A stretch of DNA of 64,000 nt from a virus. The first letter of the stretch is position 1. Every line of letters starts with the position of its first letter. The notes beneath the pieces were generated by a model. It did not search any database, was not told the origin of the DNA, and saw only the letters and a list, made by a program, of their open reading frames with translations. Below are positions 1 through 64,000 of this stretch, in pieces. The stretch is from positions 1 through 64,000 of IMG/VR virus record IMGVR_UViG_3300034062_003305. One strand, 5' to 3'. Both the position numbers and the translations under genes were made by a program.

Positions 1-2429
<2,429 letters not shown>

Positions 2430-2453
2430 AACTAGAGGAATAAGGAGGTATAC

Positions 2454-3155: not shown

Positions 3156-3169
3156 GAAAGGTGAGTTAA

Positions 3170-9396: not shown

Positions 9397-9430
9397 TAAA
9401 ATTAGATTACTAAAAAGGAGTAGAAACTAG

Positions 9431-21842: not shown

Positions 21843-21869
21843 GATATGAGCGACAAAGAGGGGAAAACA

Positions 21870-35457: not shown

Positions 35458-36940
35458 GCTCAAGCTCTTCTAATTGTCGTAACTCTTCTTTTAAAGAATC
35501 TATTTCTTTTTGCTGCTCTTTAACTAACTCTAAAACAAGAGTTGATAAAAGTCCGTAGTTAAGACTGTTAGGCTCTTTATTTTCATCATATCCAACAATT
35601 TCTTCAATGCCAGTCTCAAGAACCTCTTCAGCTATATAGCCATACATCCATTCCCGATTAATGCTGTCTTGTAAATGTCTTACTTGATTTTTATATTTAT
35701 ATCTTTTAAGTTTAAGATTTAGTATTTTCTTTACATCTTCAATTTCGTAATTTGAAATTTCTTTTTTTAGTTTTAATGTGGAGCTATTGAATTGGGTAGT
35801 TCCTGAAACTGTAACTGTGTGTGAATGCGCTCCAGTATTACCTCCCGAGTGGCCACTGTGGCCACCACCACCTACGCTAGAAGAAATAGAAACAGGGTGA
35901 GTGTGCTGAGCAACTCCAGTGGCACTAGCATTAGAGTAACCGCCTTGACCATGAACATGGTTACCTATAGCAACTTGAGTTGCGCCAGGTCCAGTATTAA
36001 CAAAAACAGTGGCTCCTGTTTTATTTAAAGGAGTATTAACTACTAATCCACTAGAAACAATTGATGCAAAAGCTGAACTAGCTATCTTTGCTGAAGTTAT
36101 AGATCCATCTTGTATTTTAGTATTAGAAATAGCATTTGGTGCTATTTTACTTTCTGGAAGCTGTGGAAGTCTTGCAAGGTCTACAATTCCACTTATAAAT
36201 TTAGAAGCATCTAAACCTGGAATACGAGCTGCACCAAAGGTACCACTTATAACTTTAGAAGCATCTAAGTTCGGAATTCTTGCAAGACTAAATATACCAG
36301 TTGTTATTTTAGAAGCATCTAAGCTTGGAACTCTATCAGCTGTAATTGCTGGAATTCTTGCGACATCAAAGACGCCAGAAGTTATTTTGGAAGTATCTAA
36401 ATTTGGAATGTTAGCGGTAGAAAGAGTTCCTGAAACTTTAGATGCAGATAGAGAACTAATTTGGCTATCTTGTACTTGTCCAATTAATTTTGAAGAAGAC
36501 ATTCCAGATATTTTGTCATCTGTTATACCGCCAGCAAGCTCTGAATTACCTACGGCACCTGCAGCTATAGAATCGGCATTTACAGCATCTGTAGCAATTT
36601 TTGAATTAATTACAGCATTATCTGCAAGAGCTATCGTTTCAACAGCACCAGAGGCAATTGAATCAGCATTTACTGAGTTAGTAGCAAGAAGCGAATTTGT
36701 GATGGAGTCTTGTTCTATTTGTGCAGTACCAACTGCTGAGGCTGCAATAGATCGTCTTACAATGGCATTGTCGGCAACGATATTTTCTTCTACAGCACGA
36801 AGAGCTAAGTTTCGAGTCGATACAGCTTTAGAAGCAAGGCGAGTAGCAGATGGTCGTGTTTCTAGATATCTAACTCTTTTTTGAATATCTGTAAGATTTC
36901 CAGAAATAGTCTTTCTGCGGGATCTACGACGGGTTGCCAC
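35441..36940 (-). CDS. Tail fibre with C-terminal S74 intramolecular chaperone (paralogue 1)
   Basis: A 499-residue protein with a GTG start. The layout is the same as the next gene: basic N-terminus MATRRRSRRKTISG, repeats of N.AVNADSIA.GAV and LDASKITTGIFSLARIPN, a central HVHGQGGYSN segment, and a C-terminal S74 chaperone (KLKKEISNYEIEDVKKILNL, then REWMYGYIAEEV, SLNYGLLSTLVLELVK). Differences concentrate in the middle of the stalk and in the region before the chaperone, which would form the receptor-contacting part. Expression from one operon suggests either hetero-fibres or alternative specificities. Autocleavage is family knowledge and has not been shown here. Confidence 0.85.
   Translation of the reverse strand: MATRRRSRRKTISGNLTDIQKRVRYLETRPSATRLASKAVSTRNLALRAVEENIVADNAIVRRSIAASAVGTAQIEQDSITNSLLATNSVNADSIASGAVETIALADNAVINSKIATDAVNADSIAAGAVGNSELAGGITDDKISGMSSSKLIGQVQDSQISSLSASKVSGTLSTANIPNLDTSKITSGVFDVARIPAITADRVPSLDASKITTGIFSLARIPNLDASKVISGTFGAARIPGLDASKFISGIVDLARLPQLPESKIAPNAISNTKIQDGSITSAKIASSAFASIVSSGLVVNTPLNKTGATVFVNTGPGATQVAIGNHVHGQGGYSNASATGVAQHTHPVSISSSVGGGGHSGHSGGNTGAHSHTVTVSGTTQFNSSTLKLKKEISNYEIEDVKKILNLKLKRYKYKNQVRHLQDSINREWMYGYIAEEVLETGIEEIVGYDENKEPNSLNYGLLSTLVLELVKEQQKEIDSLKEELRQLEELEHGNPS
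36435..36514. repeat. 80-bp identical direct repeat, copy 2
   Basis: Partner of 34952-35031 in the first S74 fibre gene. The reading frame is the same in both genes. Confidence 0.85.
36846..36939. repeat. 94-bp identical direct repeat, copy 2
   Basis: Copy 2 of the repeat at 35363-35456. It covers the start of the first S74 fibre gene, up to but not including the final base of its GTG start codon. The downstream paralogue uses ATG at the same place. Confidence 0.9.
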
Positions 36941-41640: not shown

Positions 41641-44600
41641 TATGCAGCACCTTTACGAAGTTGGAAAGCAAGTTGACGGGAGACAAGAGAAGCAAGTTCA
41701 CGTTCATCCATTCCTGGAGATGGATTAACTGTTATTTGAATTCCTCGTGACTCTCCAGCAATCATTTCAATCATTGCCTTATCACGTTTTGATAAACCAT
41801 CTGGGTCAAGAGGCTCTACACGCTCTGGACGGCCAGCCTCTCCAATACGAGCAAGCATTCCTCCAGGTGTAGCTGGAACTATTCCACCTTCTGCCAGTGG
41901 AGTTACATATGGAAGTCTAAGAGTTGGACCTTCAAAAGCAGGAATAACAGTTTTACCAGCAATTTTAAGTCCTTCAAAACTTGGCAGTTTAAATGATAAA
42001 TTATTCCATCTTTCAATTACCCAATTAAGAGCAGATTTAAAACTAGTTTTTATTCCTGCCCAAATATCACCAATTTTTAACTCACCTATTTTACCGAATA
42101 TTTCTTTAACTTTATCGTAAAACCCTACTACTTCGTTTTTAAATCCAATTAATCTATCTACCCATCTTTGAATAGTTCCTATAATCCCTAAAATAACGTC
42201 TTTAACTATGTTAATTGCACCAACAAGAATAAACTCAAGAAGAGGAACCAAAGTTACAGATAAAAAGTCTCCTATTTTTTCAAAGACACCAGAAACTCCA
42301 CCAAGTGGCTCTAGAAGTTCATTCAAAGCTTCACTTATTTCGTCCCAAGCTTCTTTTAAAGCCTTTAGAACATTTTCAAACATATCTTTAAGAGCTTCTC
42401 TTAGTTTTTCACTATTCTTATATGCTAAGATAAATACTCCTACAACTGCTGCAATTGCAATTCCTATAAGTACAAATTTTGCACTAAGAAAACCAACACC
42501 ATAAGTTAGAAAAGCAACTTCTTGCTTTAATCTTTTAACTCCAGGAATTGCACTAGGTAAAGCCATAATACCGTTCATAATTCCTATCATGGCACCTTTA
42601 AGTGAGTTTGCATAAAAAGTAAAAGCTATTTTAGATATATTTATTGCAGCAGTAAATGCAAGCAAACTACCACTAACCAACAAGAAAGCTTGTCCAAGCT
42701 CTGACCCAAGAACTGTATTTAAAACTTTTAAAATGCCAGTTAAAGTTTTAAAGAAAATATTTATAGATTCTGATTCTGTAACTATTAAAACAAATTTTGC
42801 AATTTCTTCTAAAAACTTGCCAAAAGATTCAAGTGCCCCACCTGGCTTAGATATTTCAAGACCTACTTCATTAAAAGTTCTAGTTACATTTTTTAAAGAT
42901 TCAATAAAAGATAAATATCCTGGAGAAGCGGCTATTTGTAAAAACCCTAAAGCTATTAATCCAATAACTTCTAACACTCCTTGAGCCCCTATGGTTAAGT
43001 TTGTAAGGAATGGCGCAAGTTTTCCTTCTTCATTTAATGCTTTAGTTGTTTTTTCCCAACTCTCTGTTACATCTATAAACCACTGTAAAAACGTATCTGC
43101 TGCTCCACCTGGAGCAACTGTTGCAGAAATAATAGTTCCAAAAGCGCTAAAAGCATTTCCAAAACCTTCTCCTAGCTTTTTTACTATATCTGTAGCTGTC
43201 TTAAATATCTCATTAAGCTCGCCAGTTGCATCTTTAAGCTCCACAGTTTTTCTAAAAGCTTCTGCTTTCTTTTCAATAAACTGGGAAAATTCTATTGTGT
43301 ATGGGATAAAAGCAGCTTGAAGAGTTACAAAAGCTGAAGCAAGATCAATAAATGCTCCACCCAAAGCATCAAGAATAGGGGTAAAGGAATCAAATAAATC
43401 GTTTATTTCTTTTTGTTTTCTAGCTGATGTAAATACTTCTGCAAATTCAAGAGATAGCTCTCCAAGTTTTCCTGCAATTCTTACTAAAGCTCCTTCTAAG
43501 CTAGAAGGGGAGTTCGGGTTTAAGTATGTGTCGTAAAGAAGTTTTACTGCTTCTGTAAACTTAGGAAAAAATGCTTCTTGTAGTTTTTTACGAAGCTCTT
43601 CAAAGGCTTCTTTTAAACTAATAATATACTTAACAAAATCTTGAGCAGCTGGGGATAGTTTATCTAGAGCAGCCTTATACTCATCAAAACCAGATCCTTT
43701 AGCAGCCGCAGCTTGAGCCTTAATTGCAGCTTCAACTTCTCTATTAGCAAGCTCTAAAGCACGAAGATTTTGACGATCTACTTCTCCACCAGCTGTTACT
43801 GCGTCTTGTGCTTTTTTAAGATCTTCTAAAGCTTCTCTATAAGAAATAGTTGATCGTGCAGCATCTATTTGAGCATCGCTTTCTGCTTGTTTAGAGTCTG
43901 CAAGTTTTTCTTGTGCAGCAATTACTAATTTATTGCCATCTACACCTTCACGATTTGCTTTAGCTGTTGATTTACGCAAGTCGTTGTTTTTATCAATTGC
44001 ACGTCGAAGATTGAGATCTGCTTCAGCAAATGCAAGTTCTGCCTCACGGCGAGCACGAGAATTTGGTGGAAGATCTTGAACACGTTGCAGAGAGTCACGA
44101 GCTTTTTCAAACTCAAGACGTGCTTTCTTTTCAGAAATAACTCCGCCTTCAAGTTCAAAACGAAGTTGCTGGATTGCTTCTTTAGCTTCTTCACGAGCTT
44201 CTGTAACTGCTTCAAGGGCTTTTTCAGTATTTCTAACAGCACCTTGATAAGCTCTTTCAGCTCTTTCTACTGCAATAGCTGCATCTGCAACTGCAATAGA
44301 TGCATCTGATTCTGCTTCTACTGCATCTGCTTTTCTTTTATTGTTTTGACGAATTGTGTCATCTAAATTGTAATATGCATCTGATAATCTTAAATTTGCT
44401 TCAGTAAGTCTGTCTGCGTCTTGGGCAGCATTTGATCCAATTTTAGCTCCAGCACTTATTGCTTCGCCTACTCCACCAAAAGCAGCTCTTAATACTCCAG
44501 CTCCAGCGGCAACAGCTAAAAATGCGCCAGAAAGTCCTAATAAAGCAGGAGTAGCAGCGGCTGTTATTGAAATTAAAACACCTAAACCACCTATTACTGA

Positions 44601-49829: not shown

Positions 49830-51914
49830 TTAGTATTCGATTGCCGCAGCGGTTGCGCCACCTGTTGTGTCACGGAGAGCTGCTGCTACACCGTTCACTG
49901 AGATGGTTGATGTGACCTTGAGTGACTCAACGCCAACCTTTGCTACACCTTCGAAGGTTTCAACGAACATCTTGTAGTCGTTGGTTCCAACAAGGGTAGA
50001 ATCACGGATAACTCCGAGATCCAATGTACCGCCATCTAGGAACAAGAATGTTCCTTCTGCGAACATGTACCAGACGAATGTGTCTGCGAACTCGTTCATT
50101 GCAGCAGCACCTTGTGCATCGGTGAAATCATCGATGTGGTAGGTGATGTTGATGTTGCGAGATGCGATGTAACCATCGATCTCTGCGGCTGCATTAAGGG
50201 TGTTGTCACCAGGAGCTGCGATAGCAAGATCTGCAACCATTGCATCCTTGATCCAATATGGAGCAATGACGCGAAGTGGAGCATCTGCCTCTAGGCGATG
50301 GCGACCACGGTAGTTAGCTGCTGCGCGACCTAGTTGTACTAGGAAGTCACGAGCTACACCGATTAGTGATGTTGATGTAACAGCTGTTGACAGTGCTGTC
50401 AAGCGAGTAAGGATTTGTCCTTCTGCTTCACGAGCGTGCTGAATAAGACCAAGCTCATTGTGGCGAGCGATCAATTCAGGATATGCACGAGTCATCAAGT
50501 TACCGAATTGTAGCTGTAGTGTTACAGCATCAGTAGCAACAGTGTTTTCACCAGCAGCAGTTACAGTCAAACTAAGCTTTGCAGCTGGGTTTGGTGTTTC
50601 TGCTGAGTCGTTTGCTGCGGTCCAGATTCCAACAGCGTTAGCGTATGAGCTAAGTACTGGTGGAGTTACGAAGCGGATACCGCCACGGTCAGCCTGGAAT
50701 TTTGGAAGTGCATCACGAAGTGGACGAGCAGTGGTACCAAGACCAAAGATGTCGTACTTAACTTCGAATGGTGTTGAATGTCCACCAGATGCAACAAGTG
50801 CTTCAGGACCAGTTACGGCCTGAACCTTTGCCCAGTTTGACTCAGCATCTGTTGTCAGAGTGCGAGCTTCTGGGTATTGAGTAGCGATAGATGCAACGAT
50901 GTGTTGCTCTCCATCTCCACCATTTACGCGACGTAGAGCGTGGATACGCTTTTCGAACGCTGAAGCAACATCGATCATGTTGTTCATTGGGCTGCCAGCT
51001 GTGTAGCCAGGAATGTCAGCACCCGCAGTGATTGCCACGGGAGCTACAGATGCCTGTGCAACAGGGCGACGGTCAGCCGGGACCTCGATATTGAGGTTAT
51101 CTGCATTATCAGCAGCGGCGGTCACAGGTGCCTCCATCTTTTCTTGAACCTCTGTAGGTTCTGTTTGTGTTTGGATTGATGCTTCTGCATCTTCTGTAAC
51201 TTCTGCAACTGCAGCTTCTGAATCTGCAACAACTGCTGCATCTTCAACAACTACTTCTGCTTCTGTTACAACTGCTTCAACAGCTTCTGCTGCTTCAACA
51301 GGTGCTGCTTCTGCGGCTGGAGCATCTTCTGCACCATCTGCAACAACAGCGGTTGCCTCTACAGCGGCAGCTGCTTCGGTAACAACTTCGTTTGATTCTG
51401 TCGAAAGTTCGACGGTCTTATCTGCATCGATTGACGCTTCGGACATTTTTTCCTCTTCCTTTTTCTTTTCCTCATCCATCACTGGAGTTGGTGCTTCTTC
51501 TTCCATTGGCATTTCTTCTGCCATAGGAGCTTCGGCTGCAGGAACTTCTTCAGAAGGCATGTCTTCTTCTTTTTTATCTTCAGCCATTGCAGCTTCAGAT
51601 TCAGAAGTCATCTCTTCTTTCTTTTCCTCTGAGGAATCGGATTCCATATCCTTTTCTTTGTCTTCGCCGTACACACGAGAGGCTGCTTCTGCTGCCCGCT
51701 GTGCGAGCTCTTGAACCGCGGCCTCGCGTCGCTTGAATTCACCTTGAACGGTGCCAAGCATGTCGGCTAATGACGACATTGCGTCAACTGATTGCGGAGT
51801 AAGGTCATCTTTTTCTACAGACTCAAATTCTTTGATTATCTTGTTCTGTAACTCAGTAACTTGATCGTCAGTGAGTTCAGCTAGTGAATCAAATGATTCT
51901 TTAATTTGGTCCAT
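49830..51914 (-). CDS. Major capsid protein with fused scaffold-like N-terminus
   Basis: A 694-residue protein. Residues 1-100 are coiled-coil-like (LAELTDDQVTELQNKIIKEF) and residues 100-280 are extremely Ala/Glu/Val-rich and acidic, like a scaffolding or delta domain that the maturation protease removes. From about residue 298 the capsid domain starts (ADIPGYTAGSPMNNMIDVAS), continuing with FEVKYDIFGLGTTARPLRDA, an FVTPPVLSSY strand, LRVIAPYWIKDAMVADLAIA, and a terminal LVGTNDYKMFVETFEGVAKV pattern as in actinobacteriophage capsid proteins. The 168-base leader holds a promoter-like element and hairpins. Confidence 0.85.
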   Translation of the reverse strand: MDQIKESFDSLAELTDDQVTELQNKIIKEFESVEKDDLTPQSVDAMSSLADMLGTVQGEFKRREAAVQELAQRAAEAASRVYGEDKEKDMESDSSEEKKEEMTSESEAAMAEDKKEEDMPSEEVPAAEAPMAEEMPMEEEAPTPVMDEEKKKEEEKMSEASIDADKTVELSTESNEVVTEAAAAVEATAVVADGAEDAPAAEAAPVEAAEAVEAVVTEAEVVVEDAAVVADSEAAVAEVTEDAEASIQTQTEPTEVQEKMEAPVTAAADNADNLNIEVPADRRPVAQASVAPVAITAGADIPGYTAGSPMNNMIDVASAFEKRIHALRRVNGGDGEQHIVASIATQYPEARTLTTDAESNWAKVQAVTGPEALVASGGHSTPFEVKYDIFGLGTTARPLRDALPKFQADRGGIRFVTPPVLSSYANAVGIWTAANDSAETPNPAAKLSLTVTAAGENTVATDAVTLQLQFGNLMTRAYPELIARHNELGLIQHAREAEGQILTRLTALSTAVTSTSLIGVARDFLVQLGRAAANYRGRHRLEADAPLRVIAPYWIKDAMVADLAIAAPGDNTLNAAAEIDGYIASRNINITYHIDDFTDAQGAAAMNEFADTFVWYMFAEGTFLFLDGGTLDLGVIRDSTLVGTNDYKMFVETFEGVAKVGVESLKVTSTISVNGVAAALRDTTGGATAAAIEY

Positions 51915-52082: not shown

Positions 52083-55000
52083 TTAGGTAAGTAAGCGAAG
52101 AAGCTTTGCCATCTGGGAAGATATTTCTGATTGATTATAGAGATCGCTACCTGAAATAAACTTCTTCAAACCCTCTGTTGCTTCGTCAGCATCTTCTTGA
52201 CCAATCTTGTCCTCTACACGAGTAATCATGTCTTTCATGAGGTCTCTAAGAGCTGGAGGAACGTCTGAGAAGCGAATCTTTTCTGCATCTTCACCGAAGG
52301 CAAAAGGTAGGTTAGCAATAACCTTTCCAAGCTCTCCAGCGCTAATTCGAACGTTCTCTAAAGCTTCAGCATTTAGTGCTCCAGAGTCCAATCGGTCAAT
52401 AATTCCGAGTAAATCTCCTGCTGCTTTAGCTGCTCCAGCGTAATCGCCAGTGCTATCAAAGTTTTCAGCTTCTGCAATTTTATCTAGGACACGGTCTAAA
52501 CCAGATGTTCCAAGATCCTGCTTGATACGGGCTAATACCTGACGGAACTTGCCTGAGGCATCACGAGGTTGAGTTTCAGGGGTGTATTTAGCACGGCCAT
52601 CTTCATCACGAGAGATACCATCATTTTCTTGATCTTTACGAGCTTTTGCTTCAGTTTTTAATGCTTCAATTTCTTCATCTGTAAGGTCAGCAATCTCTTC
52701 TTCTATAGGATCTTCAGCAAATTCTTGTGTTGAAAAAACTGCTTCTGAATTCATAGAAGCTGCTGCAAAAGTTGCTCGAGTTTTCATAGTCTCGACAATT
52801 TCATCTAAATTAGAGGCTGCACCTTTCCAACTTTCTGGAATGATTTCTTCTCTATTAAGACCAATAGCACGTTTCATGATATGACGTTTTACCTTGCCAC
52901 GGCTTCCTGGCCTTGAGCGACCATAAGCACGGATAGCATTTTTTAAATCCTGAGGATTGCGGATAGGAAAGGATCCATCTGGAAGTGCTTTTCCTTCTTC
53001 AGCAAGACGCATACGAGTCTTACGAGAGATAACTCCCATTTCATTTTCTGGGTCATCATCGAACATCTCGGTCATATAGTCATAATCGAGATCCGAGTCT
53101 ACTTTTATTTTTGAAACTTTTGCAGCAATTAAAGCTTTTTGCTCTGATAATTGTGCATTTTGAAAAGCTTGAATACGAGAACGAGCATCATTTGCTGAAG
53201 CAACTAAAGCTTCTTTTTGTGGACGCTCTAAAGCTTCAAGACGACCCTTCATTTCTAAAAGTGGATCGCTTTTTAGTTGTGCAAGAACACTTGCTCCAGC
53301 AGCAACAAGAGCCATAACAGATCCTGATGCAACACGAGCACGAGCAATTGGGAATCCTGGAACATTTACCTGACATACAGCAACTAGTTCTAAAGAATTT
53401 TTAATTGGGCGCCAGTCACCAGATGGTGCTGATGCACGAAGTGCACGAATTTGTTCTGGTGTAGATCCTGGACGAACTGATCCAGCTACCCAAATACCAT
53501 AGGCATCTTCTCCAGCATGTACATCTGCAATTGCAGACGCTGTGTCGTCGTAGTGACGAACTGCTTCAGAGGCTGATGCTTCTAGTGATGCGTGTCCCCC
53601 CGCAAGAGTTAATTGCCCTACTGGTACATCTGTACCATCATCTGTACGAACTACACCTGTGTGAAAATATGCATACTTGCTACGACTGCGTGGAGGCTTG
53701 GTTCCCATACTCATGCCGATATGATCAACATTCCAAGCTGCGATATGACCGAATACACGACCATCATCATCAACAGTGAGTGGTGTTGCAGTTGTTAATT
53801 TTGGATCGTTAAACCACTCTTTTGGTGGATTAACTGGAATTGCACCTGCGATCATTCCGCAAGCAACAAGAGCCGAAGCATCGAGAGGGTTTACTCCTTC
53901 GACATATACGCCGTCAGGGATATTCACTTCTTCCTCTTCTCCGCCGAGCTCATCGGCGAGTTGAATTGAGCATTCTTGGAAAGCTGGCTTCGGCACCAAA
54001 GTCACAGCCATGACTCGTGCTTTCTTGATCTTTATTTTACCGCTTTCTACCTTGGTGTCAGAGCCTTCTTTGACCTCTGGAACCTCTTCGTCACCCTCAA
54101 ATTGATCGAGATCTGCCGAAACTCCACGAATAAAACCGCCACGAACTAGTCGTTCAGCTTCTTGTCCATATGAACCTTTATCAAAATAACCACGAGCGTT
54201 TCCGATACCGTTATCGGTACGGTCCATCTCAACAATCTTTCCTACAACAACAGAACCATTATGGCCTTCTCCCGTTTGAATTTGCCACAAAAGTGGAAGT
54301 GGAAGGTCTCTTACAGAGAGAGCTCCCTTTTCAATAATTCTTCCGTCTCCAGACTCTACTTCTTCAGGGATTACTAGAGGGATAAAGAACTCTGATCCAT
54401 TTTGATCTTCCATATCTCCACCAGCAGTCATAACTCTGGCTTTGGCATCGGCTGCTTTAGCACGAAGAATAAAAGTGCTCAAAAGTTCATCGTAATTATG
54501 TAAAGTATTAACGCTAAAAGAAGCCATCTCACGATTCTTCTTATCTCCTGGCCAGTAGCCATTTGCCTCTCTGTGACGAAGGGCGCAGTATCCCTTAGCA
54601 CGAGGTCCCATGTACTTGGCTAGTTGACGATAGCAACGAGTCCAATCTCCTGGAGTTCTCCAACGAATCTTGGCTGCACCCTTGCCATATAACCAATAAC
54701 GACGAAGCTTCTCTGCTTGACCACGATTGCGATCAAGGCCGCCAGCAGCAGTAATTCCTTTACTATCTACTTGCTCTAAAACATCAACAAGAGTTGCGTC
54801 ATCTAAAACAACTACAGGTGGTGGAGTTGCACTACGAAGATCTGTCAATAATTGAGGATCATGTACCCACTTACCTTTTTTACGAGTAAATGTAGTTGGT
54901 TGAATTGTTTTATTTGATGCTGGAACTAAAGCAACTAAATCCATAACAGCTTGTGGATCATCTGGTGAAACTACAGCCATGTGAAGAATAGGAACATCTG

Positions 55001-56849
55001 AAGTTTCAGGTGTCATTGCTTTTTCTTCACCAGCAGAAGCCTTTATAGGACGACCCTTAGAATCAAGCTTTGGAGATTTAATTCCTCGTTCTTCAGTAAA
55101 TTTCTTTGTTTTTTCTGGATCTACAAATGGATTATATTTACGACGAGTTTCTGGGCCAGACTCTAGCCAAGGGCGAAGAATAGGAAGGTTGTATGCATTT
55201 ACTTCCTTAGTCCAGTTTGTAAATTTTTCTGGATAATACTTATATAAAGGATTATCTGCTGCAACTTCTTTTTCTACACCCTGTGGTTGCTGAGGTGTCG
55301 AGCTTTGAGGTGTTGTTTTTAAATTAGATCCGCTAGGAGTTTGCGTTGGTTGAGGATCTGGAGAAAGTCTTTGCTCTGATACCCACTGCGGATAGTTAGT
55401 AAGCATTAGGTTTAAATTCTGTGCATTTAGTGGAGGAAGAGTTCCTGGCATACGGATCGGTGAATCCATAGGAGTACGAGGCTCACCAAGAATTCCTGAA
55501 GTATCTAACTCTCCTTCTGCAACTGCAGTAGGAATAGGGACATACGACTCAGCTGGTTCCGTCATATTTGCAGCAATACTAATTAAATTTCCGTTATCAA
55601 GTTCTACTTGAGCAGTTTGTGTTTTAGCATCAAGAGCACGAATGTTTCCTTGATACTCAGGACGGCCTCCAATAATTACACGGCCACCCATCTTTGCAAA
55701 TTTTCCTGTCTTATCACGCAATTGGGCAGAAGCATTTTCAGATCTTTCTTCTGGAGTATAAACTCCATCACCTTTACCAGAGCTTGGAGTTTCTCCAGCA
55801 GCAGTTAAGCTGTCATCAAAGAAATCCCATGAATCAGACATTTCATCTTGAATAGCTAAATCATCCAATAAATCCATATCAAGATCTGGGTAAGCATCTT
55901 CATAAATTTTGTTTTCTTCTGGATATAACTTATCTACTTTATGTGCAATAAAAGGTTCGTTATCTAGAAGTGCAGCAATAAAAAGTGCAGTTTCTGTATC
56001 TACTGGAACGTGTCCGCAAGGTACTAAGTTGTTAGGGTCGTCAAGAACCTTGTCGTACATTGACATATCAGCATCTGGCATACCCATGTCATCCCAGTCG
56101 CCGTCATCCCACACATAAATATGACCAGCTGGTTCAATGCGGTATAGGCGGTCAATACCAGATCCGTCTAAACGAATACGGGCAAAAAATTCAATTACAT
56201 TGTCTTCAGGCATTGTTTTAGAGACAATAAAAGAGTCGTAATTAACTCTCTTTGGCATTTCAAAATCCATAGGATCTAAGCCAGTAGCAATTAATGAGTT
56301 TGACTTAGCCTTCTTATTTTCACGTTCTACGATTGCTGTTGCCCATGAACGAGCAGCATCTCCACCCCAAAGAGCCCAAGCGATGCGACCATTTGATGGA
56401 TAATTCTTTTGTCCCGGCTTATAGCCAGTTCCTTTTTTATCTACTTCATGACGTGGAAAATATTTTGCAATATGACGAACCTTGCGAATACCAATTTGTC
56501 CACCACGAGCAAGTGTGCGGGCAGTATTAAGACCTACAGAAGTACCGCCACGGTTTTCTTCTTTACGCCATTCAAGACCACGTTTTGCCTCTGCTTTTAC
56601 AGAGTCTGGAATTGTATACATACGGTCATTATTTGAAAAAACTTTAATATCTAAATCGGTAAGAGCTGCTGCTGCAAGTTCTACAGATGGTCCACTTGGA
56701 CGATTACTTTCTGAGTCCCAATTAGCTGCTGCAATAAGAGGTTCTTTAACATCTAAAGCAACAACAAGGTTTTTTGACTCATCCACTACAGCGCCAAGAG
56801 TGTCGGAGACGAAGAGGAATCTAGACCCATTACGACCAATGTAATCCAT
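52083..56849 (-). CDS. Capsid maturation protease polyprotein
   Basis: A 1588-residue protein, far longer than the usual 200-600. Residues about 85-175 (GIRKVRHIAKYFPRHEVDKK, YPSNGRIAWALWGGDAARSW) and about 690-770 (YGKGAAKIRWRTPGDWTRCY, GPRAKGYCALRHREANGYWP) are accessory domains remembered from actinobacteriophage head proteases. The protease is at about 815-1000: FIPLVIPEEVESGDGRIIEK, GEGHNGSVVVGKI (candidate catalytic His) and FIRGVSADLDQF (candidate Ser). A later domain resembles the family's helical end (RDASGKFRQVLARIKQDLGT; SQMAKLLRLLT). It probably cleaves the acidic part of the capsid protein and itself. The start overlaps the upstream gene by one base. Confidence 0.8.
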   Translation of the reverse strand: MDYIGRNGSRFLFVSDTLGAVVDESKNLVVALDVKEPLIAAANWDSESNRPSGPSVELAAAALTDLDIKVFSNNDRMYTIPDSVKAEAKRGLEWRKEENRGGTSVGLNTARTLARGGQIGIRKVRHIAKYFPRHEVDKKGTGYKPGQKNYPSNGRIAWALWGGDAARSWATAIVERENKKAKSNSLIATGLDPMDFEMPKRVNYDSFIVSKTMPEDNVIEFFARIRLDGSGIDRLYRIEPAGHIYVWDDGDWDDMGMPDADMSMYDKVLDDPNNLVPCGHVPVDTETALFIAALLDNEPFIAHKVDKLYPEENKIYEDAYPDLDMDLLDDLAIQDEMSDSWDFFDDSLTAAGETPSSGKGDGVYTPEERSENASAQLRDKTGKFAKMGGRVIIGGRPEYQGNIRALDAKTQTAQVELDNGNLISIAANMTEPAESYVPIPTAVAEGELDTSGILGEPRTPMDSPIRMPGTLPPLNAQNLNLMLTNYPQWVSEQRLSPDPQPTQTPSGSNLKTTPQSSTPQQPQGVEKEVAADNPLYKYYPEKFTNWTKEVNAYNLPILRPWLESGPETRRKYNPFVDPEKTKKFTEERGIKSPKLDSKGRPIKASAGEEKAMTPETSDVPILHMAVVSPDDPQAVMDLVALVPASNKTIQPTTFTRKKGKWVHDPQLLTDLRSATPPPVVVLDDATLVDVLEQVDSKGITAAGGLDRNRGQAEKLRRYWLYGKGAAKIRWRTPGDWTRCYRQLAKYMGPRAKGYCALRHREANGYWPGDKKNREMASFSVNTLHNYDELLSTFILRAKAADAKARVMTAGGDMEDQNGSEFFIPLVIPEEVESGDGRIIEKGALSVRDLPLPLLWQIQTGEGHNGSVVVGKIVEMDRTDNGIGNARGYFDKGSYGQEAERLVRGGFIRGVSADLDQFEGDEEVPEVKEGSDTKVESGKIKIKKARVMAVTLVPKPAFQECSIQLADELGGEEEEVNIPDGVYVEGVNPLDASALVACGMIAGAIPVNPPKEWFNDPKLTTATPLTVDDDGRVFGHIAAWNVDHIGMSMGTKPPRSRSKYAYFHTGVVRTDDGTDVPVGQLTLAGGHASLEASASEAVRHYDDTASAIADVHAGEDAYGIWVAGSVRPGSTPEQIRALRASAPSGDWRPIKNSLELVAVCQVNVPGFPIARARVASGSVMALVAAGASVLAQLKSDPLLEMKGRLEALERPQKEALVASANDARSRIQAFQNAQLSEQKALIAAKVSKIKVDSDLDYDYMTEMFDDDPENEMGVISRKTRMRLAEEGKALPDGSFPIRNPQDLKNAIRAYGRSRPGSRGKVKRHIMKRAIGLNREEIIPESWKGAASNLDEIVETMKTRATFAAASMNSEAVFSTQEFAEDPIEEEIADLTDEEIEALKTEAKARKDQENDGISRDEDGRAKYTPETQPRDASGKFRQVLARIKQDLGTSGLDRVLDKIAEAENFDSTGDYAGAAKAAGDLLGIIDRLDSGALNAEALENVRISAGELGKVIANLPFAFGEDAEKIRFSDVPPALRDLMKDMITRVEDKIGQEDADEATEGLKKFISGSDLYNQSEISSQMAKLLRLLT

Positions 56850-57559
56850 TACTTACTCTCCTCTGTTACTGGTCCGCCAGCTACCCATGCACGACAGGTG
56901 CGGGATGCAGCGCATTTAAAGTCGAATGCTTCACAATACCCTAAATCTCCAGCTTCGATTGAGCCCCAAGCATCGTTACCTTCTTCATTACCAAGCCCAG
57001 AAGCAATACAATCAAGCATCTTTGGGGTCTGAATAAATACAGCGCAATTGCCGCAAAGTTGTTTCTTTGCAGTCTCTTTATCGACAGACCATTCGTCCGC
57101 AATTGCTTCCCAGTACTCATCGTTAGGCTCTAAAGGATTAAGAGGTCCATACATAGCAGTGTCAATAGCGTTCTTGCGGTTATCGAGGTTAATAGCAATG
57201 TCTTGAGTAGCTGGAGGGCATCCTTCAGATGTCTGAACAGCTGCTGTCATTGCCTTAGTTTCAAAAGAATAAGCTACTTCATATTTTTTAACATTATCGT
57301 ATGTTAAAGGAATTCCAGTCGTGTTTGCGTTATCAAACATCTCTGTAACTATCTTGTAGTCTTCTGGAAGAATGTCCATAACAGCTAAGTTATTCAGACT
57401 TTGATCGTTAGAGGATAAAAGTCTCCATCGACCATCAATACGAGTGTAAATACCGAAGTCTTCGGTGTAGAAAATTTCTTGAGTTATAACGTTATCGCCA
57501 TTTGAGTAGATTAATGAGATACCTTCTTTAGGGTACTCTTTAGCAGAAGATACCTTCAT
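56849..57559 (-). CDS. Cys-rich protein, possible Fe-S or zinc protein
   Basis: A 236-residue protein. The first 115 residues are a beta-rich domain (ISLIYSNGDNVITQEIFYTE). The C-terminal part contains six or seven Cys in the pattern EGCPPATQD, LCGNCAVFIQ, LDCIASGL, LGYCEAFDFKCAASRTCRAW. The C-x2-C, C, C-x-C arrangement followed by AASRTCRAW recalls high-potential iron-sulphur protein motifs but is not a perfect match. The start overlaps the upstream small gene (ATGA). It sits between the giant polyprotein and the protease, so a head-assembly or ejection role is possible but unproven. Confidence 0.6.
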   Translation of the reverse strand: MKVSSAKEYPKEGISLIYSNGDNVITQEIFYTEDFGIYTRIDGRWRLLSSNDQSLNNLAVMDILPEDYKIVTEMFDNANTTGIPLTYDNVKKYEVAYSFETKAMTAAVQTSEGCPPATQDIAINLDNRKNAIDTAMYGPLNPLEPNDEYWEAIADEWSVDKETAKKQLCGNCAVFIQTPKMLDCIASGLGNEEGNDAWGSIEAGDLGYCEAFDFKCAASRTCRAWVAGGPVTEESK

Positions 57560-57683: not shown

Positions 57684-57797
57684 TTATACCGTCTTCTCTT
57701 GGTCTTCTTCTTCTTCAGGAATAGGAACTTCAGAAGGCTCTGGGTTGTAGTCAGGACCTAGAGGGTCCACAATTTCATACTCGAAATCATCCGACAT
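57684..57797 (-). CDS. Small acidic protein (37 residues)
   Basis: ATG at 57797 lies inside the end of the giant gene (11-base overlap), and the TAA is two bases before the next GTG. The product MSDDFEYEIVDPLGPDYNPE continues to PIPEEEEDQEKTV and is Pro/Glu-rich and probably unfolded. The upstream aaggaaaatcta is an adequate ribosome site. No family is recognised. Confidence 0.5.
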   Translation of the reverse strand: MSDDFEYEIVDPLGPDYNPEPSEVPIPEEEEDQEKTV

Positions 57798-60700
57798 TTA
57801 GATTTTCCTTTCTGTAAGCTTCTTTAAGACTTTCTGCGGAATTACGTCCAAGTACTTTATTAGTGATAAAAATAAGATTCATTCTGTATTCTACACCATG
57901 AGGGTCAAATCCCTGTGCCACGCTAATTGCTGTAGCAAAATGAGCAATCTCGTGAAGAATAGCTGGTTCATTTTTTGATAAAAGACTGTTAATTTTTAAC
58001 GCTGATTTAAATACACCGTTTTTAAAGCCATAACTATATTGGCCGCCTCGTTTTTTACTAGTATACAAACTTACTGGAGGTCTCCCCATTTGCCCTCCGT
58101 CACCAAAGGCTTCTACAAACCAATCAGCGGTGATTATATCTTTTACATAATTTTGAACACCTTTTGCAGACCCATTTAAATTTTTTTCTCCTATTGGAGA
58201 TTGAATATTTCTTGAGCTTTCACGGTAGGCTTCATCATACTCTTTAGAATATTTTTTATAAGCTGCTACATAAGAGTCTCTATCTGGAAAATTATCACGT
58301 TTAGGGGCGACAGGTCGTTTCATAGGTCTTTGTATTTGAGGCGTCCATACTTCTTCTGCACCATATACTTTTCTAACATCTAAATCGCTACGGCCTACCT
58401 GTGCGTTATATAACTCTCTAGGACTAAGATTTTGCCCACCTTTTACACCAGCGGGTTTTATATCATCTTCTGCAATCTCTTCTCCAGTTCTACCTTGCTC
58501 TCCTACATTTGGCTCTGGAGTTGGTTCTGATGTTGTAGGTGCTTCTCCTGCAATTTCATCACCAGTTTTTCCTTCACTACCAACACCTGAGCCAACTGGC
58601 TCAACTGGGTTTCCTTCTTCATCAAACTTTGCTGGCTCTTCTTGCTTGCCTAACATATGGTCTACAGCCTTTTGTGCTTGCTTTGCTGCTTTGACAATCA
58701 TCTGAGGATCATTCTTTACAGCTGGCAACCATGACTTGGCATATGCAGCAACATTTTCAAAGTCAATTTTTACACCAAGACGAGCTGCCACAAGTGCAAC
58801 GGTAATCTCTGCAATAAGTTCTTCCTCACCACGGCTTTCTATATGCTTTCCGTAGTTATCTAGCAGATCTGTTCTATTTAAACGTGACCTATGCCCAGTG
58901 CTGTGCGCTAGCTCGTGAACAAGAGTTTCAAAGAATGCTTGATCTGACTTAAACTGTTCACGCTTTGGAAGCTTAATAATGTCTTCTGTAGGGCTATAAA
59001 ACGCTTGGTCCTGAGCTACAAAAAGAATTTCTGGTTTGTCTTTGTACGCCTCAAGAATTGCTGTTTCGCCTTCTGTAACTGGGATTGGTTCTCCCTTTAC
59101 AAGAGCTGGAAGATTAATGTTATCTGCTTGTTCAGCATTGAAAACTGTGATCACCTTTGGTGGTCGATAGACAAAAACGTTTTCTTTTGTTCCATCTGGC
59201 TTTTCAACTTCTTTAAACACTGGCTGCCAGTGAATAATCTGAGTTCCCTTTTCACCACGACGAATGTTTCCGCCAAGCTTTTCGGCTTGTTTATATGTAA
59301 GGAATCGATTATCTGTCCAACCATTTTTATCCATAGCTGCCCAGAGAACAAGAATGTTTGATCCTTCGTATGTTTTACCAGTAGCAACGCTTGTTGGGAG
59401 GAATCCTCCACCAGTCCAAGGCTTTTGCCATGGAACGGTGCCTCTTTCGATTGCTTCAATAATTGCATTAGCAACCTTTTCAGTTGCTGGATCGATTTTT
59501 TCAGATGTTTTTACAGTGCTTTCATTGAACTCATCTTCAGTTACTTTTTCAGTAGGAAGAGTCATTTCCATAAAGTTTTCTATAACTGTAGGTTTCTTTG
59601 GAAGCTCATCTTCGTCTTCGGTGTATTCCTTAATCCAATTAAGTGGACCTGGATCTAACTTTTTCTGAGCACGAGTAAGTGCAACATAAGCAAGACGGAG
59701 TTCTTCATCTACTGGCATTTCAAGTTCGCCAGTCTTCTTGTTTGTACGAGGACCCCAGAAGTCATCAAAGATACGAACGTTATTCCACTGTAAGCCTTTT
59801 GACTTATGTGCAGTAGTTACAATGACATCAATTTCAGCTTCTTCTTCACCTGCGTCAGGTGCAAAACCACCGACAGCTCTGCGAAGATCATTGATAGCTT
59901 TTTGACGGTCTAGGTCGTCTTCAACTTCCTTGTACCACTGCTTTTCTGCTGGGTCCCAGCGGAACTTTTGCTCTTTAATAACATCTTTACCCTTGAATGT
60001 TCCATTACCAGAAAGACGGACTGCAGTTCCTTTAACTTCATAATTAATTCCATTTCCAATAGAACCCTTAGCTCCATCTTCAGCTTGATCTAAAGTAACC
60101 TTCTTAAAATCAGATGATGGTTTGAGGTCTTTCTTTTCAGACTCAGGTGTAGCAACCTTTACTCTGCTAAGAATATCTTTAATAGATCCAATTCCATTTT
60201 GTACAACTAAATCGTAAAGAGCTTTTACTTTTCTACCTTCGCCCTTTTCAACAGCTTCTTTTACCTCAGACCAGTTTTTAAATTCTGCAAGGTCTGGGTG
60301 CATTGTTGGCTTCTTAAACTTTGTTTGGTCTCCAATAAGCCATGAAGCACTGTTAACAAGGCTTTCTAATTCATCTTTTGTTCCTTTTGTGATACCAACA
60401 ACCTTGCCAGCATCAAGAAGCTCAATCATTGCTCGGAATCCACCAGAGTTTGTTCTAGTGATTACAACATCTGGATCTTCCATTCCATCTACTACTTCAC
60501 CCTTTGGTCCAGAACCTTCAACACGATATTTAGAGCCAAGCTGAGCGAGGAATCTATTTGCCATACCAGCAATTTCTGGTCCAAATCTAAAAGACTGAGT
60601 AAGTGGTAGGTCAAACTTAGCGGTTGTTTTATCTAGCTGGTCTTCTGCTCCACGGAATGCATAGATTGCTTGATTTCCATCGCCAACATAAACTTTTTGA

Positions 60701-63700
60701 ATGCTTTGATCGGCAATAACCTTTGCAATAACTGGGTTGATGTCTTGAGCCTCATCAAAAAATATTACATCTGCTGGAGTCTTCATTCCAGAACCGACAG
60801 AACCTAAATCTGGATTACTTAAAGCCCAAATCTTTGTAATGTGAGCATTGTTAATACCAAATACTCCTGCAGGACTGTTTAAATCGTCCCAATAAGCATT
60901 TGCATACTCTACAAATGATCGAGGAACTTCATCAAGCTCTTCTGTAAAATGTTTAGAACCAAGCTCATCATCTGCACTAATTGCAAAGTTGTTAACTGCT
61001 TGCTTAATAATTGCTGGGATCTCTCGTGAAGAAAGACTTACTTCAACTCCCTTTAGTTTTACACCAGTTGGTTTAATCCCAAGCTCGTCTGCAATATCTT
61101 CAGCACGAAGCTTCATGTTTGCAGTCTTGCCTTTTTGATTTAAGAACTTTTGACGAATATCATCGCTTACACCTTGGAAAGCAATTGAGTCACCTGTGCG
61201 TGATTCAACATTTTTAGGCATCTTGCCTTCTGCTTCCATCTGTACTGTTTTGTTAAATGCAATATAAACAATCTTTTTCTTAGGTTGTTCCTCAAGAAGT
61301 CGACGAGCAGCAAGTGTGAGTGTACTTGTTTTACCTGTACCAGCTAGGGCACGAACAACGACGTTATCACCAGTCATAATTGCTGTAATTACATTGCGTT
61401 GCTCAGCTGTAGGAGGGAATTTTTCTCCTGCATATTCGTAATTATCTTCTGGAAGAGCGTTAGGGACAGCAGAGCCTTCTTCAGAAAGTGGTGCCATGTC
61501 ATAGACTTCAGCTCCCATATCTGGAAGTGCCATACCCATTGAGATATCTGGAGTATCTTCAGGCTTTCTCCAAACTCTTACCTTCTCTGTCTTAGGGAAG
61601 GATACAAATCCTCCTCCTCTAGATCCTCTAGTTTTTGTGCCGACAAGTACTTCGTCTACTTCAACTCTGATAGCAGAAACTCTTGTCTTACCTGAAATAT
61701 CTAGTCGATCTCCAACCTTAAGATCTGTTGGATCAATTCTTGATGCTACAAGTCCTCTAGTTGTTGCTTCTTCTGGAATAGCCATTCCCATGTCTGCAGG
61801 AGTTGGCTGTGGAGAAAGAATTGAATCTCCATCATCTTCTCTAATAATTTCTAAGCTACCAGCTGCAGCATTTTCACGCTTTGCGGCATCATCAAACTTA
61901 ACCTTGAGGTAATTCTTACGCTTATCTTTTCCAAACTCTTCTGTAAGAGTTCTGACAGTTCCAACTCTGCCATTCTTAATATTTCTAACTCTATCTCCAA
62001 CTTTAAGTGGAACACCATTTGCATCTAGGTGGTAAGAAGATCCACCTTCACGGTCAATAATCTGAGACTTAATAGTTTCATCAACATTAAGATCCTTAAC
62101 AGCGTCTGCAACTGTGCTATCTGATTTAGATCCAGAAGTAATAGTTTCAATAGCATCACTAATAACCTTAGTTGCTTGTTCGTCTGTAACTTCTTCGCCC
62201 TTAACTGGAGCTGATTCTGGCTCAACTTGTGGTGTTGGGTTATCAGGAGTTGGCTTAGGAAGAGTTGATTTAACTTCAGCTTCTGTCTTGCCTACAGTTG
62301 AATGACGACGACGAACTTCACCATACTTAATTTCACGAGTTCTAGCCCAACCGACGCCTGGAGTTGCGCTATCTTCAACACGATCTACATAAACTTCCCC
62401 TGTGCTAGGGCTCTTGCGATAGACAATAAGTTTTTCAGAGTTCTCTGGGTCAACTTGAATGTCAATAATTTCTACATAACCGCCACGACCTTCAATAAAG
62501 TCACCGACTCTTAACTCATCAACAAGTACAGATGAGCCTCCGTTTACAGCGTAAGTATTGTCATCGTCAAGCATCCATGCTTCATTAATTTCATCTCCAA
62601 AGACAGAGACGTGAGAGTAGTTGCCCACCTGATCTGTAGATCCTTCAGGTCCAAACTCTGGTTTTGTCTTTACATTGTCAGCTGCTTCTTGAGCCTTCCA
62701 AGCAGCCATGTCACGATTGTATTTATCAAGCTTTGCTTTGTACTCTTCTGCACGAGCAGCAGTGTCAAACTGAGGATTGTCTGGCTTCATTTCTGAAAGA
62801 AGTCGATCTAAGATTGGCTTTAGAACACGAATATCTGTAGCTGCATTATGTAGATCTTCTTCAGATACCTCAATTTCAAACTTCTTAGCAAGTTGACCTA
62901 ATGCATTTCCTTTATTTCCATACAGTGATCGTGCAAGACCTCGAGTATCGATTACACCACTAATTTCGTAATCAACACCTGTCTTTGCAGCCCACTTTTC
63001 AAATGTATTAACATCAAATTCAGCATTGTGAGCTACCCAAATTGAATCTGGTCCAGCCCAGTCTGCAAATGCCTTTAACTGCTCCCCAATGCTTGGCTGA
63101 GTTGCAAGCCATTCATCTGTAACATCTTGATCCCCGCTCTTTAAAAGCTTGGCTGGATTTATTGCAGGATTACCATTTTCATCAAGATAAGGTGTCTTAT
63201 GATCATCTAGGGTGCGATAGAAATTATCAAGAGGAACGCCAGGATTTATAAATAGATTTATCTCATCTACCTTTTCTCCATTTTCATAGACTGCACCAGC
63301 AATCTGAATTGGAGCGTCTGGATCATCGTGATCAAAACGACCAGTACCAACAGTTTCAAAGTCCATGATTACAACACGCTTGCCCTTTAAGGCTTCGGAA
63401 ATTGCAGCACCATCGTTTAGCTTTCCTAGCTCTGCAGCAGAGCCTGTAAATGCTGGACGATCAGGGCGATATCTTGGCTTATCTACACGGACTGCAGGAA
63501 TATCTTCTGCAGTAATAGATGGCTTGTAATCTTTTCCTGCTTCTTTACGAGCAGCAACAATCTCTGCACGCTTTTCTTGGTAAGCCTTGCCCTTAAGAGT
63601 TCCATTTGCAATTCTTTCAATTGCTGGCTTATCTCCAGCCTTTGGCATGTTTTCTGCTGATTCACCACGAATAACTTCAATAGGAGTCTCTTCGTTCCAA

Positions 63701-64000
63701 TCATTTTCCTGCATTTCATGTCCTGGATAGAAACCACGAACTGTTGTCTTCTTTTCAATCTTGCCGTTGTCTGGACGTGTATATTCCTTAGTGCCTTCAA
63801 CAACTTCAGTAATAACAAAGAACTGTTCTGGATCTCCAGTAGTTTCATTGCGAGTAAATGCAATATCGTTAGGTTGAAGATTTCTGGCAACATCTGTAAT
63901 AACGTGTGCGCCAGTCTTAGGCTTTGGAGCTGGCTCTGGAGCTACTTCTGCTTCCGGGACAGTCCACGTTGATTTACGACGCTCGAGCTCCTTGTCGTAC
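57787..64000 (-). CDS. Giant DnaQ exonuclease / UvrD-like helicase / ArdC-like / HEXXH fusion, 5'-truncated by window edge
   Basis: The frame is open to the window end (no stop from 63714 to 64000, reading YDKELERRKSTWTVPEAEVA there), so at least 2070 residues and an earlier start. Counting from the internal Met at 63714: a DEDDh exonuclease at about 110-325 (IMDFETVGTG, VAHNAEFDVNTFE, HNAATDIRVL) and small KOW-like beta domains at about 575-720. A UvrD/SF1 helicase spans about 780-1360, with ALAGTGKTSTL, FFDEAQDIN, GDGNQAIYAFRGA, TTAHKSKGLQW and YVALTRAQ. An ArdC-like segment follows at about 1400-1720 (VPWQKPW, then HELAHSTGH). The last 60 residues hold a second LHEIAHFAT motif with FDPHGVEYR, recalling the actinobacterial TIGR04338 HEXXH family. 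It lies directly before the head genes. Confidence 0.8.
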   Translation of the reverse strand, partial: YDKELERRKSTWTVPEAEVAPEPAPKPKTGAHVITDVARNLQPNDIAFTRNETTGDPEQFFVITEVVEGTKEYTRPDNGKIEKKTTVRGFYPGHEMQENDWNEETPIEVIRGESAENMPKAGDKPAIERIANGTLKGKAYQEKRAEIVAARKEAGKDYKPSITAEDIPAVRVDKPRYRPDRPAFTGSAAELGKLNDGAAISEALKGKRVVIMDFETVGTGRFDHDDPDAPIQIAGAVYENGEKVDEINLFINPGVPLDNFYRTLDDHKTPYLDENGNPAINPAKLLKSGDQDVTDEWLATQPSIGEQLKAFADWAGPDSIWVAHNAEFDVNTFEKWAAKTGVDYEISGVIDTRGLARSLYGNKGNALGQLAKKFEIEVSEEDLHNAATDIRVLKPILDRLLSEMKPDNPQFDTAARAEEYKAKLDKYNRDMAAWKAQEAADNVKTKPEFGPEGSTDQVGNYSHVSVFGDEINEAWMLDDDNTYAVNGGSSVLVDELRVGDFIEGRGGYVEIIDIQVDPENSEKLIVYRKSPSTGEVYVDRVEDSATPGVGWARTREIKYGEVRRRHSTVGKTEAEVKSTLPKPTPDNPTPQVEPESAPVKGEEVTDEQATKVISDAIETITSGSKSDSTVADAVKDLNVDETIKSQIIDREGGSSYHLDANGVPLKVGDRVRNIKNGRVGTVRTLTEEFGKDKRKNYLKVKFDDAAKRENAAAGSLEIIREDDGDSILSPQPTPADMGMAIPEEATTRGLVASRIDPTDLKVGDRLDISGKTRVSAIRVEVDEVLVGTKTRGSRGGGFVSFPKTEKVRVWRKPEDTPDISMGMALPDMGAEVYDMAPLSEEGSAVPNALPEDNYEYAGEKFPPTAEQRNVITAIMTGDNVVVRALAGTGKTSTLTLAARRLLEEQPKKKIVYIAFNKTVQMEAEGKMPKNVESRTGDSIAFQGVSDDIRQKFLNQKGKTANMKLRAEDIADELGIKPTGVKLKGVEVSLSSREIPAIIKQAVNNFAISADDELGSKHFTEELDEVPRSFVEYANAYWDDLNSPAGVFGINNAHITKIWALSNPDLGSVGSGMKTPADVIFFDEAQDINPVIAKVIADQSIQKVYVGDGNQAIYAFRGAEDQLDKTTAKFDLPLTQSFRFGPEIAGMANRFLAQLGSKYRVEGSGPKGEVVDGMEDPDVVITRTNSGGFRAMIELLDAGKVVGITKGTKDELESLVNSASWLIGDQTKFKKPTMHPDLAEFKNWSEVKEAVEKGEGRKVKALYDLVVQNGIGSIKDILSRVKVATPESEKKDLKPSSDFKKVTLDQAEDGAKGSIGNGINYEVKGTAVRLSGNGTFKGKDVIKEQKFRWDPAEKQWYKEVEDDLDRQKAINDLRRAVGGFAPDAGEEEAEIDVIVTTAHKSKGLQWNNVRIFDDFWGPRTNKKTGELEMPVDEELRLAYVALTRAQKKLDPGPLNWIKEYTEDEDELPKKPTVIENFMEMTLPTEKVTEDEFNESTVKTSEKIDPATEKVANAIIEAIERGTVPWQKPWTGGGFLPTSVATGKTYEGSNILVLWAAMDKNGWTDNRFLTYKQAEKLGGNIRRGEKGTQIIHWQPVFKEVEKPDGTKENVFVYRPPKVITVFNAEQADNINLPALVKGEPIPVTEGETAILEAYKDKPEILFVAQDQAFYSPTEDIIKLPKREQFKSDQAFFETLVHELAHSTGHRSRLNRTDLLDNYGKHIESRGEEELIAEITVALVAARLGVKIDFENVAAYAKSWLPAVKNDPQMIVKAAKQAQKAVDHMLGKQEEPAKFDEEGNPVEPVGSGVGSEGKTGDEIAGEAPTTSEPTPEPNVGEQGRTGEEIAEDDIKPAGVKGGQNLSPRELYNAQVGRSDLDVRKVYGAEEVWTPQIQRPMKRPVAPKRDNFPDRDSYVAAYKKYSKEYDEAYRESSRNIQSPIGEKNLNGSAKGVQNYVKDIITADWFVEAFGDGGQMGRPPVSLYTSKKRGGQYSYGFKNGVFKSALKINSLLSKNEPAILHEIAHFATAISVAQGFDPHGVEYRMNLIFITNKVLGRNSAESLKEAYRKENLNVG

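Follow-up and report, generated by a model that had tools for sequence, protein, structure and literature searches.

The subject of this study is a giant open reading frame (ORF) at the right end of a 64,000-nucleotide stretch of viral DNA (here, the window), which comprises bases 1 to 64000 of the 67,079-base IMG/VR record IMGVR_UViG_3300034062_003305. The part of the ORF that lies in the window (positions 57787 to 63999, minus strand) is open over 2,070 codons and joins a DnaQ-type exonuclease, a superfamily 1 (SF1) helicase, an ArdC-N domain, a zincin metallopeptidase, and a second zincin-like module. By its predicted domains and gene surroundings, this giant classifies as a phage-type polyvalent protein, so that the class to which it belongs is already known. 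From its domains, catalytic residues, domain order, genomic slot, and accessory swapping, all established at the sequence level, we infer that it is probably made together with the head proteins, packaged, injected, and used to guard the entering genome.

Domain composition of the giant protein

The exonuclease domain (positions 62659 to 63390, minus strand) contains the motifs DFET, HNAEFD, and HNAATD and matched Pfam RNase_T (E value of 1.2e-17) and phrog_192 (6.1e-22); PolC/DnaQ exonucleases were returned by a sequence search of the Protein Data Bank (PDB) (4e-07 to 4e-05). The five D-E-D-H-D residues of this DEDDh-type domain do not vary among the 15 distinct homologues compared, the window included. 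For this and the following residue counts, rows shorter than 80% of the full domain length were dropped, and the remainder was merged at 90% identity. The UvrD/FBH1-like SF1 DNA helicase (positions 59509 to 61443, minus strand) matched UvrD-helicase (3.4e-16), UvrD_C (2.6e-09), and phrog_1967 (4.3e-85), and its best PDB sequence match was F-box DNA helicase 1 (FBH1; 8.6e-26). Its motifs are AGTGKT, DEAQD, NQAIYAF, QSFRFG, TAHKSKG, and VALTRA, and the Walker A lysine, the DEAQ residues, and the arginines of motifs IV and VI are likewise unchanged in all 18 distinct homologues, again including the window. The giant thus keeps all motif residues of the SF1 helicases FBH1, UvrD, and Rep, from which it differs in that its helicase is embedded in a phage chain beside a DEDDh exonuclease.

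The helicase is followed by an ArdC-N domain (positions 59191 to 59487, minus strand; Pfam ArdcN, 5.8e-31), a domain that binds single-stranded DNA in plasmid ArdC, and then by an MPTase-PolyVal zincin metallopeptidase with the HEXXH sequence HELAH (positions 58678 to 59016, minus strand; Pfam, 3.2e-31), the HEXXH residues of which are shared by all 7 distinct homologues. Both modules are spanned by a match to the plasmid ArdC structure 6sna (6.9e-46; residues 1507 to 1792 of the 2,070-amino-acid [aa] translation). The exonuclease, SF1 helicase, and ArdC parts of the original prediction were thus recovered by Pfam, PHROGs, and PDB sequence searches.

The second HEXXH domain of that prediction fared less uniformly. 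This C-terminal module (HEIAH...HG; positions 57790 to 58413, minus strand) forms the last 208 residues, and its HEXXH residues and the following histidine are kept in 8 of 8 homologues. The only sequence match in Pfam was a weak one to SprT-like proteins (E value of 0.076). An AlphaFold model (predicted local distance difference test [pLDDT] of 85, predicted template modelling score [pTM] of 0.83) returned nothing from the PDB at an E value of 0.001 or better in Foldseek (best, 0.13). When the Foldseek candidates were realigned, named zinc metallopeptidases, among them selecase, LTA4 hydrolase, and Wss1, filled 13 of the first 14 rows, with Z scores of 5.0 to 6.8 that are by themselves too low to convince. 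The module therefore models as zincin-like, with a weak sequence match. It also forms the C-terminal part of a 518-aa protein at two further loci (L246, positions 2025 to 4302; L247, positions 1663 to 3940; L and G numbers denote loci and records, respectively), where the next ORF, of 263 aa, had an ADP-ribosyltransferase match.

Intact relatives and exchange of effector domains

The frame stays open beyond the window to record position 67077, corresponding to at least 3,096 aa, and alignment with L004 to L006 indicates that the 5' end, encoding approximately 800 N-terminal residues, is missing from the record. The frame of at least 2,070 residues originally reported is therefore real, and extension past position 64000, which had been proposed as a check, revealed a much longer protein. 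With the whole window protein as the query, six loci were returned. Intact homologues are identical at 3,527 aa in L003, L006, L007, and L008 and measure 3,889 aa in L004 and 3,353 aa in L005. In the alignment of the window protein with L004 to L006, the middle region varies in length and sequence. The window, L004, L173, and L242 to L245 have the second zincin module, which L005 and L006 lack; the giants of the latter two end after the MPTase.

Relatives were collected with a helicase alignment, for which 80 of at least 307 viral relatives and 59 genome loci were examined, and with an alignment of the N-terminal domain, for which 80 of 124 viral loci were examined. ORFs were listed for 26 of the 139 loci from the helicase searches, and a local hidden Markov model survey covered the loci other than L001 to L003, L007, L008, L095 to L148, L150 to L152, and L153 to L159. 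Viral loci from the helicase search past L022 were mostly weak matches, and those examined were stand-alone helicases except for L024 and L025. The counts of 22, 67, and 81 given here and below treat the same phage species from several samples separately, and cluster numbers are given alongside.

An exonuclease, helicase, ArdC-N, and MPTase in one ORF and in this order were found in 22 contigs, that of the window included, which form 9 clusters at 90% helicase identity and have a lowest pairwise helicase identity of 31.7%. The search for proteins of the same domain order, suggested in the original prediction, thus indicates that the combination is not due to chance. Other effectors are swapped in beside the exonuclease and helicase, namely, a NUDIX domain in the 5,188-aa giant of L016 and an ADP-ribosyltransferase (ART) in L017. 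ART and helicase occur without the exonuclease in Arthrobacter phage Atuin, L019, and L020, and exonuclease and NUDIX occur without this helicase at six loci among L229 to L239. The complete giants of L226, L227, and L233 showed none of these domains, and that of L227 had no match to PDB sequences at an E value of 0.01.

The metagenome-assembled lake phage DSL-LC01 encodes a 3,289-aa giant annotated "hypothetical protein," and its host is predicted to belong to the Actinomycetia in the covered part of its description (PMC10611076). Since the hosts of relatives, namely, DSL-LC01 and the Arthrobacter phages, point in this direction, the window phage probably infects actinobacteria. In the Nocardia takedensis contig NZ_BAGG01000266.1 (L094), a homologous helicase (39% identity) is part of an ORF that spans 7,263 aa or more and runs off the locus on both sides; this protein may be a polyvalent giant of the conjugative type.

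Conservation of the slot in the head operon

The gene surroundings were surveyed for 81 giants (80 loci from the N-terminal search plus DSL-LC01), many of which are cut by the contig end. A portal gene was found upstream on the same strand at all 67 loci where the contig extends 3.4 kb or more ahead of the giant; these loci form 25 clusters at 90% N-terminal identity. The first portal model had included some of these loci, and a model built without any counted locus again gave 67 of 67. Two of the 67, L235 and L236, are different portal-giant loci on one 160,704-base contig (IMGVR_UViG_3300047564_003843); either this contig was joined or the phage is present in two copies. A homologue of the window's head protease was encoded downstream at 16 of the 19 loci that contain the end of the giant ORF and 1.5 kb or more of sequence beyond; at the remaining three (L184, L194, and L200), the giant is split into two ORFs. 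At L021, L188, L194, L200, and L218, the N-terminal domain is encoded by a shorter ORF that stops ahead of the remainder of the giant, which reflects split genes, frameshifts, or assembly errors.

At the level of records, a phrog_776 portal was present in 12 of 18. Those without it are G000, G007, and G009, which end at the giant, the records of L022 and L024, which have PF04860 instead, and the Nocardia genome. A phrog_777 capsid protein was present in 11 of 18, in one of them weakly, and several of the others are short fragments. In two cultured phages with Arthrobacter globiformis as laboratory host, the slot between portal and protease is likewise occupied: by gp78 (2,709 aa) in Arthrobacter phage Racecar and by gp71 (3,113 aa) in Arthrobacter phage Atuin, each annotated as "DNA helicase" alone. 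Their N termini carry RDxxGRW, and their helicases are 38 to 40% (Racecar) and 36 to 38% (Atuin) identical.

A second, more distant lineage links the giant to the prohead in another way. In L022 and L024, its N terminus is a prohead protease of the Peptidase_S78 family (6.6e-11 and 2.2e-09), behind which ArdC-N, MPTase, and UvrD helicase domains follow in turn; a portal gene (PF04860) lies just upstream and an HK97-type capsid gene further downstream. The same records contain a second giant ORF, of 5,254 and 2,057 aa, respectively, with an RNase_T exonuclease domain (G014, positions 74445 to 75005; G015, positions 43410 to 43967).

In L006, the gene order is portal (phrog_776, 4.2e-108), a 381-aa DUF5824 protein (2.3e-09), giant, a 236-aa protein, head protease, and major head protein. 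In the window, the giant is followed by a cysteine-rich protein of 236 aa (positions 56849 to 57559, minus strand), a head maturation protease polyprotein of 1,588 aa (positions 52083 to 56849, minus strand; phrog_18402, 2.3e-58), and a major head protein with an acidic N-terminal region (positions 49830 to 51914, minus strand; phrog_777, 1.7e-82). The best PHROGs match of the polyprotein, phrog_859 (2.3e-94), is named portal protein and covers residues 825 to 1233 alone. The PHROGs matches thus confirm the predicted location upstream of the head protease and capsid genes. The cysteine-rich protein had no Pfam match at an E value of 0.05; it is homologous to a DSL-LC01 protein annotated "high potential iron-sulfur protein" (HiPIP) (1e-59, with a model built without DSL-LC01). 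At L233, a 470-aa gene upstream of the giant (positions 8526 to 9935) was matched by the HiPIP-like model (1.5e-63), so that this domain can flank the giant on either side.

An N-terminal motif in common with the head protease

The N terminus of the giant is marked in relatives by the motif RDxxG[KR]F, which the head protease carries as well, with two copies in the window polyprotein. In the surveyed loci, which are redundant, the form [RK]DxxG[KRQ][FWY] occurred 58 times per 154,439 aa of giants and 22 times per 27,320 aa of head proteases. The remaining ORFs, 438,477 aa in total, contained it twice, and one of these two instances belongs to the giant of L014. Outside the giants, the motif is thus almost confined to the head protease.

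The giant also diverges faster than its neighbours. Between L006 and L018, identity amounts to 90% for the 381-aa gene, 84% for the protease, 72% for the 236-aa gene, and 46% for the giant, and whichever two of L004, L005, and L006 were compared, the giant had the lowest identity among the five genes. This fits a conflict with host defences and also fits relaxed linkers.

Replication and other genes of the window phage

The giant had been described as lying apart from the replication genes, which agrees with our finding of a separate replication module. Elsewhere in its genome, the window phage encodes PolA with its own exonuclease domain, a Sak4-like protein, a single-stranded DNA-binding protein, another exonuclease, and another helicase. 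With these genes present, replication does not obviously require the giant. The idea that its exonuclease is the missing proofreading domain of the phage was rejected, as PolA has its own.

Further features of the window include a second giant, a 2,896-aa ORF with matches to virion structural and baseplate wedge families (positions 9431 to 18121, plus strand), an adjacent pair of tail-fibre-like genes with approximately 70% DNA identity that reflects a duplication (positions 33892 to 36940), and a methyltransferase-like gene upstream of a beta-1,4-glycosyltransferase gene (positions 21264 to 22943, plus strand), a pair with a possible role in DNA or surface modification.

Assembly of the window record

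We compared the window record with G004 (IMGVR_UViG_3300034200_001443; 134,380 bases). A first comparison gave 99.08% identity over 57.7 kb and then a fall at the giant. On closer comparison, identity is 100% up to position 54,062 and 81 to 90% per 500 bases from position 54,063 as far as the giant, so that the break falls inside the head protease gene. After the break, the window is nearest to L005, and between 57.5 and 59.5 kb, it is nearest to L004. This abrupt divergence may stem from a chimeric assembly or from genuine recombination. Since the two are indistinguishable here, the record was not used as evidence of gene swapping, and the family-level evidence is drawn from contigs other than this possibly chimeric one. 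A recombination hot spot at the giant of the window phage was rejected, as divergence starts inside the protease gene, after position 54,062. The two records begin no more than 4 bases apart (window positions 1 to 5), inside a tail-fibre-type ORF, which suggests a common assembly break at repeats.

Discussion

The combination of domains in the giant had been called unrecognised. It falls into the class of polyvalent proteins described by Iyer, Burroughs, Anand, de Souza and Aravind in 2017, for which, in the part of that article covered here, ArdC-N and MPTase domains are common and late-gene surroundings typical (PMC5512222). In accordance, the window giant unites disparate activities on one very long polypeptide, contains the ArdC-N and MPTase-PolyVal hubs, and is encoded near late virion genes of a phage of the portal/terminase type. 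What sets the family apart is the exonuclease-SF1 helicase core in a head operon and the fusion to a prohead protease, which were not seen in the covered part of that source. There, a UvrD helicase is reported for a few actinomycete polyvalent giants in conjugative contexts (e.g., OJH72069.1), assemblin-like peptidases are mentioned at C termini only, and in the main text "DnaQ" is absent and the sole instance of "exonuclease" is in the title of a cited reference (PMC5512222). We found no description of a head-operon lineage with an exonuclease-helicase-ArdC core and swapped effectors in the literature covered, which excludes most subscription journals and the supplements on polyvalent proteins.

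Two other systems invite comparison. The ArdC-N and zincin modules are homologous to plasmid ArdC (R388/pSa; PDB 6sna and 6i89), from which the giant differs in that both lie near the end of a chain of 3 to 4 thousand residues, behind an exonuclease and a helicase, and in a head operon. In the covered part of the R388 study, ArdC counters HsdRMS and binds single-stranded DNA, and its protease activity is not needed (PMC7213743). DarB of phage P1 is likewise very large and carries a helicase, and it has been proposed to protect incoming DNA in cis; it consists of a methyltransferase and a superfamily 2 (SF2) helicase, according to the covered part of PMC5512222, in contrast to the SF1 helicase, nuclease, and ArdC of the giant. 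The Pfam matches of the window part and of intact L004 included no methyltransferase, the missing 5' part of the window giant lying outside this search. Homology to DarB was therefore rejected. The original suggestion of a DNA-protecting or ejection protein analogous to DarB is partly supported: the slot, the Peptidase_S78 fusion, the shared motif, and the separate replication genes make it the best-supported reading.

We propose that the giant would enter the prohead by means of its N-terminal RDxxGRF domain or, in the other lineage, of the fused prohead protease, travel in the capsid, and enter the cell with the DNA. The ArdC-N domain would then bind exposed single-stranded DNA and blunt type I restriction in the way of plasmid ArdC. 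The SF1 helicase and the exonuclease of the same chain, which we take from their families to be both 3'-5', would move along the entering DNA, strip restriction, recombination, or CRISPR (clustered regularly interspaced short palindromic repeats) complexes, and trim ends. The zincins would divide the giant into fragments or act as proteases on host proteins. The genome would be guarded in the first minutes, ahead of phage gene expression. The proposal is based on the separate replication genes and on the known action of R388 ArdC. A more specific version, which we regard as speculative and rather improbable, is a capsid-borne, ATP-driven machine for DNA-end processing, in which a 3'-5' helicase and a 3'-5' exonuclease tethered by ArdC-N would clear host complexes and repair or reset restriction-cut or recombinase-bound DNA before expression, with an effector bay that varies by phage.

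Several observations weigh against packaging and protection. (i) The N-terminal model (pLDDT of 78, pTM of 0.51) had no PDB match (best E value of 0.54), which demonstrates neither novelty nor function, and the N-terminal 1,360 residues of L004 had no Pfam match, so that head targeting rests on position and motif. The motif itself is absent from 17 of 33 protease ORFs, and its looser form is absent from 10 of 81 giants, some of these ORFs being truncated. (ii) The searches detected neither exonuclease nor ArdC nor MPTase in the Racecar and Atuin giants, which have another HEFGH site and an ADP-ribosyltransferase domain, respectively. (iii) Homologous helicases of approximately 500 to 575 aa are encoded by stand-alone genes in Streptomyces phage JustBecause, where a DnaQ-like exonuclease is encoded a few genes from the helicase, and in Acinetobacter phage Acibel004, with a ligase and a thymidylate synthase nearby. 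(iv) In the covered part of the R388 study, expression of ardC was required in the recipient rather than the donor (PMC7213743); delivery was thus not what mattered there.

The third of these points would be expected if the giant were a replication, recombination, or DNA repair polyprotein that is produced inside the infected cell and cut by its MPTase into a fork-acting helicase and exonuclease and lies in the head operon for historical reasons. The separate exonuclease genes located elsewhere in Racecar and Atuin (244 and 237 codons) agree with this, as if both enzymes were generally useful. We consider this explanation unlikely, given that the head slot is kept in all testable loci, that the giant is fused to a prohead protease in L022 and L024, and that the window phage owns a polymerase with an exonuclease domain and the other replication functions described above. 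The conserved slot is itself open to another interpretation: a position between portal and protease and a motif in common with the latter would suit a head assembly or DNA packaging factor, MuF-like in position, the enzymes of which tidy DNA ends or portal-proximal DNA and do not act in the next host. A MuF domain in the giant was rejected because intact L004 had no match to it (Pfam E values up to 0.5), a distant kinship being possible as the N-terminal fold is unmatched. Furthermore, a core packaging factor would not be expected to differ among relatives in its effectors (ART, NUDIX, and second zincin) or to diverge fast, and ArdC-MPTase is an antirestriction protein in plasmids, according to the covered part of PMC7213743. 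Taken together, these data make a packaging factor quite improbable.

The changing effectors would also be explained if the giant carried takeover enzymes (ART, NUDIX, and metallopeptidase) that act on host proteins or nucleotides, DNA protection being secondary. The ART of Atuin, L017, L019, and L020 and the NUDIX domain of L016 and the six loci among L229 to L239 are in line with this. We find it very doubtful for the giant analysed here, since the window part has neither ART nor NUDIX and is made up of DNA-acting domains and zincins and since the exonuclease-helicase-ArdC-MPTase set recurs in 22 contigs.

If the giant is packaged, as we favour, phages of this family would deliver a very large multienzyme cargo, and polyvalent proteins would be extended to a helicase-nuclease core in widely sampled, probably actinobacterial phages. 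Homologues are encoded by the cultured phages Racecar, Mimi, Talia1610, and Atuin, where they are annotated as helicase alone, and make the injection proposed for polyvalent proteins directly testable. The varied effectors of the family constitute a catalogue of candidate counter-defence enzymes.

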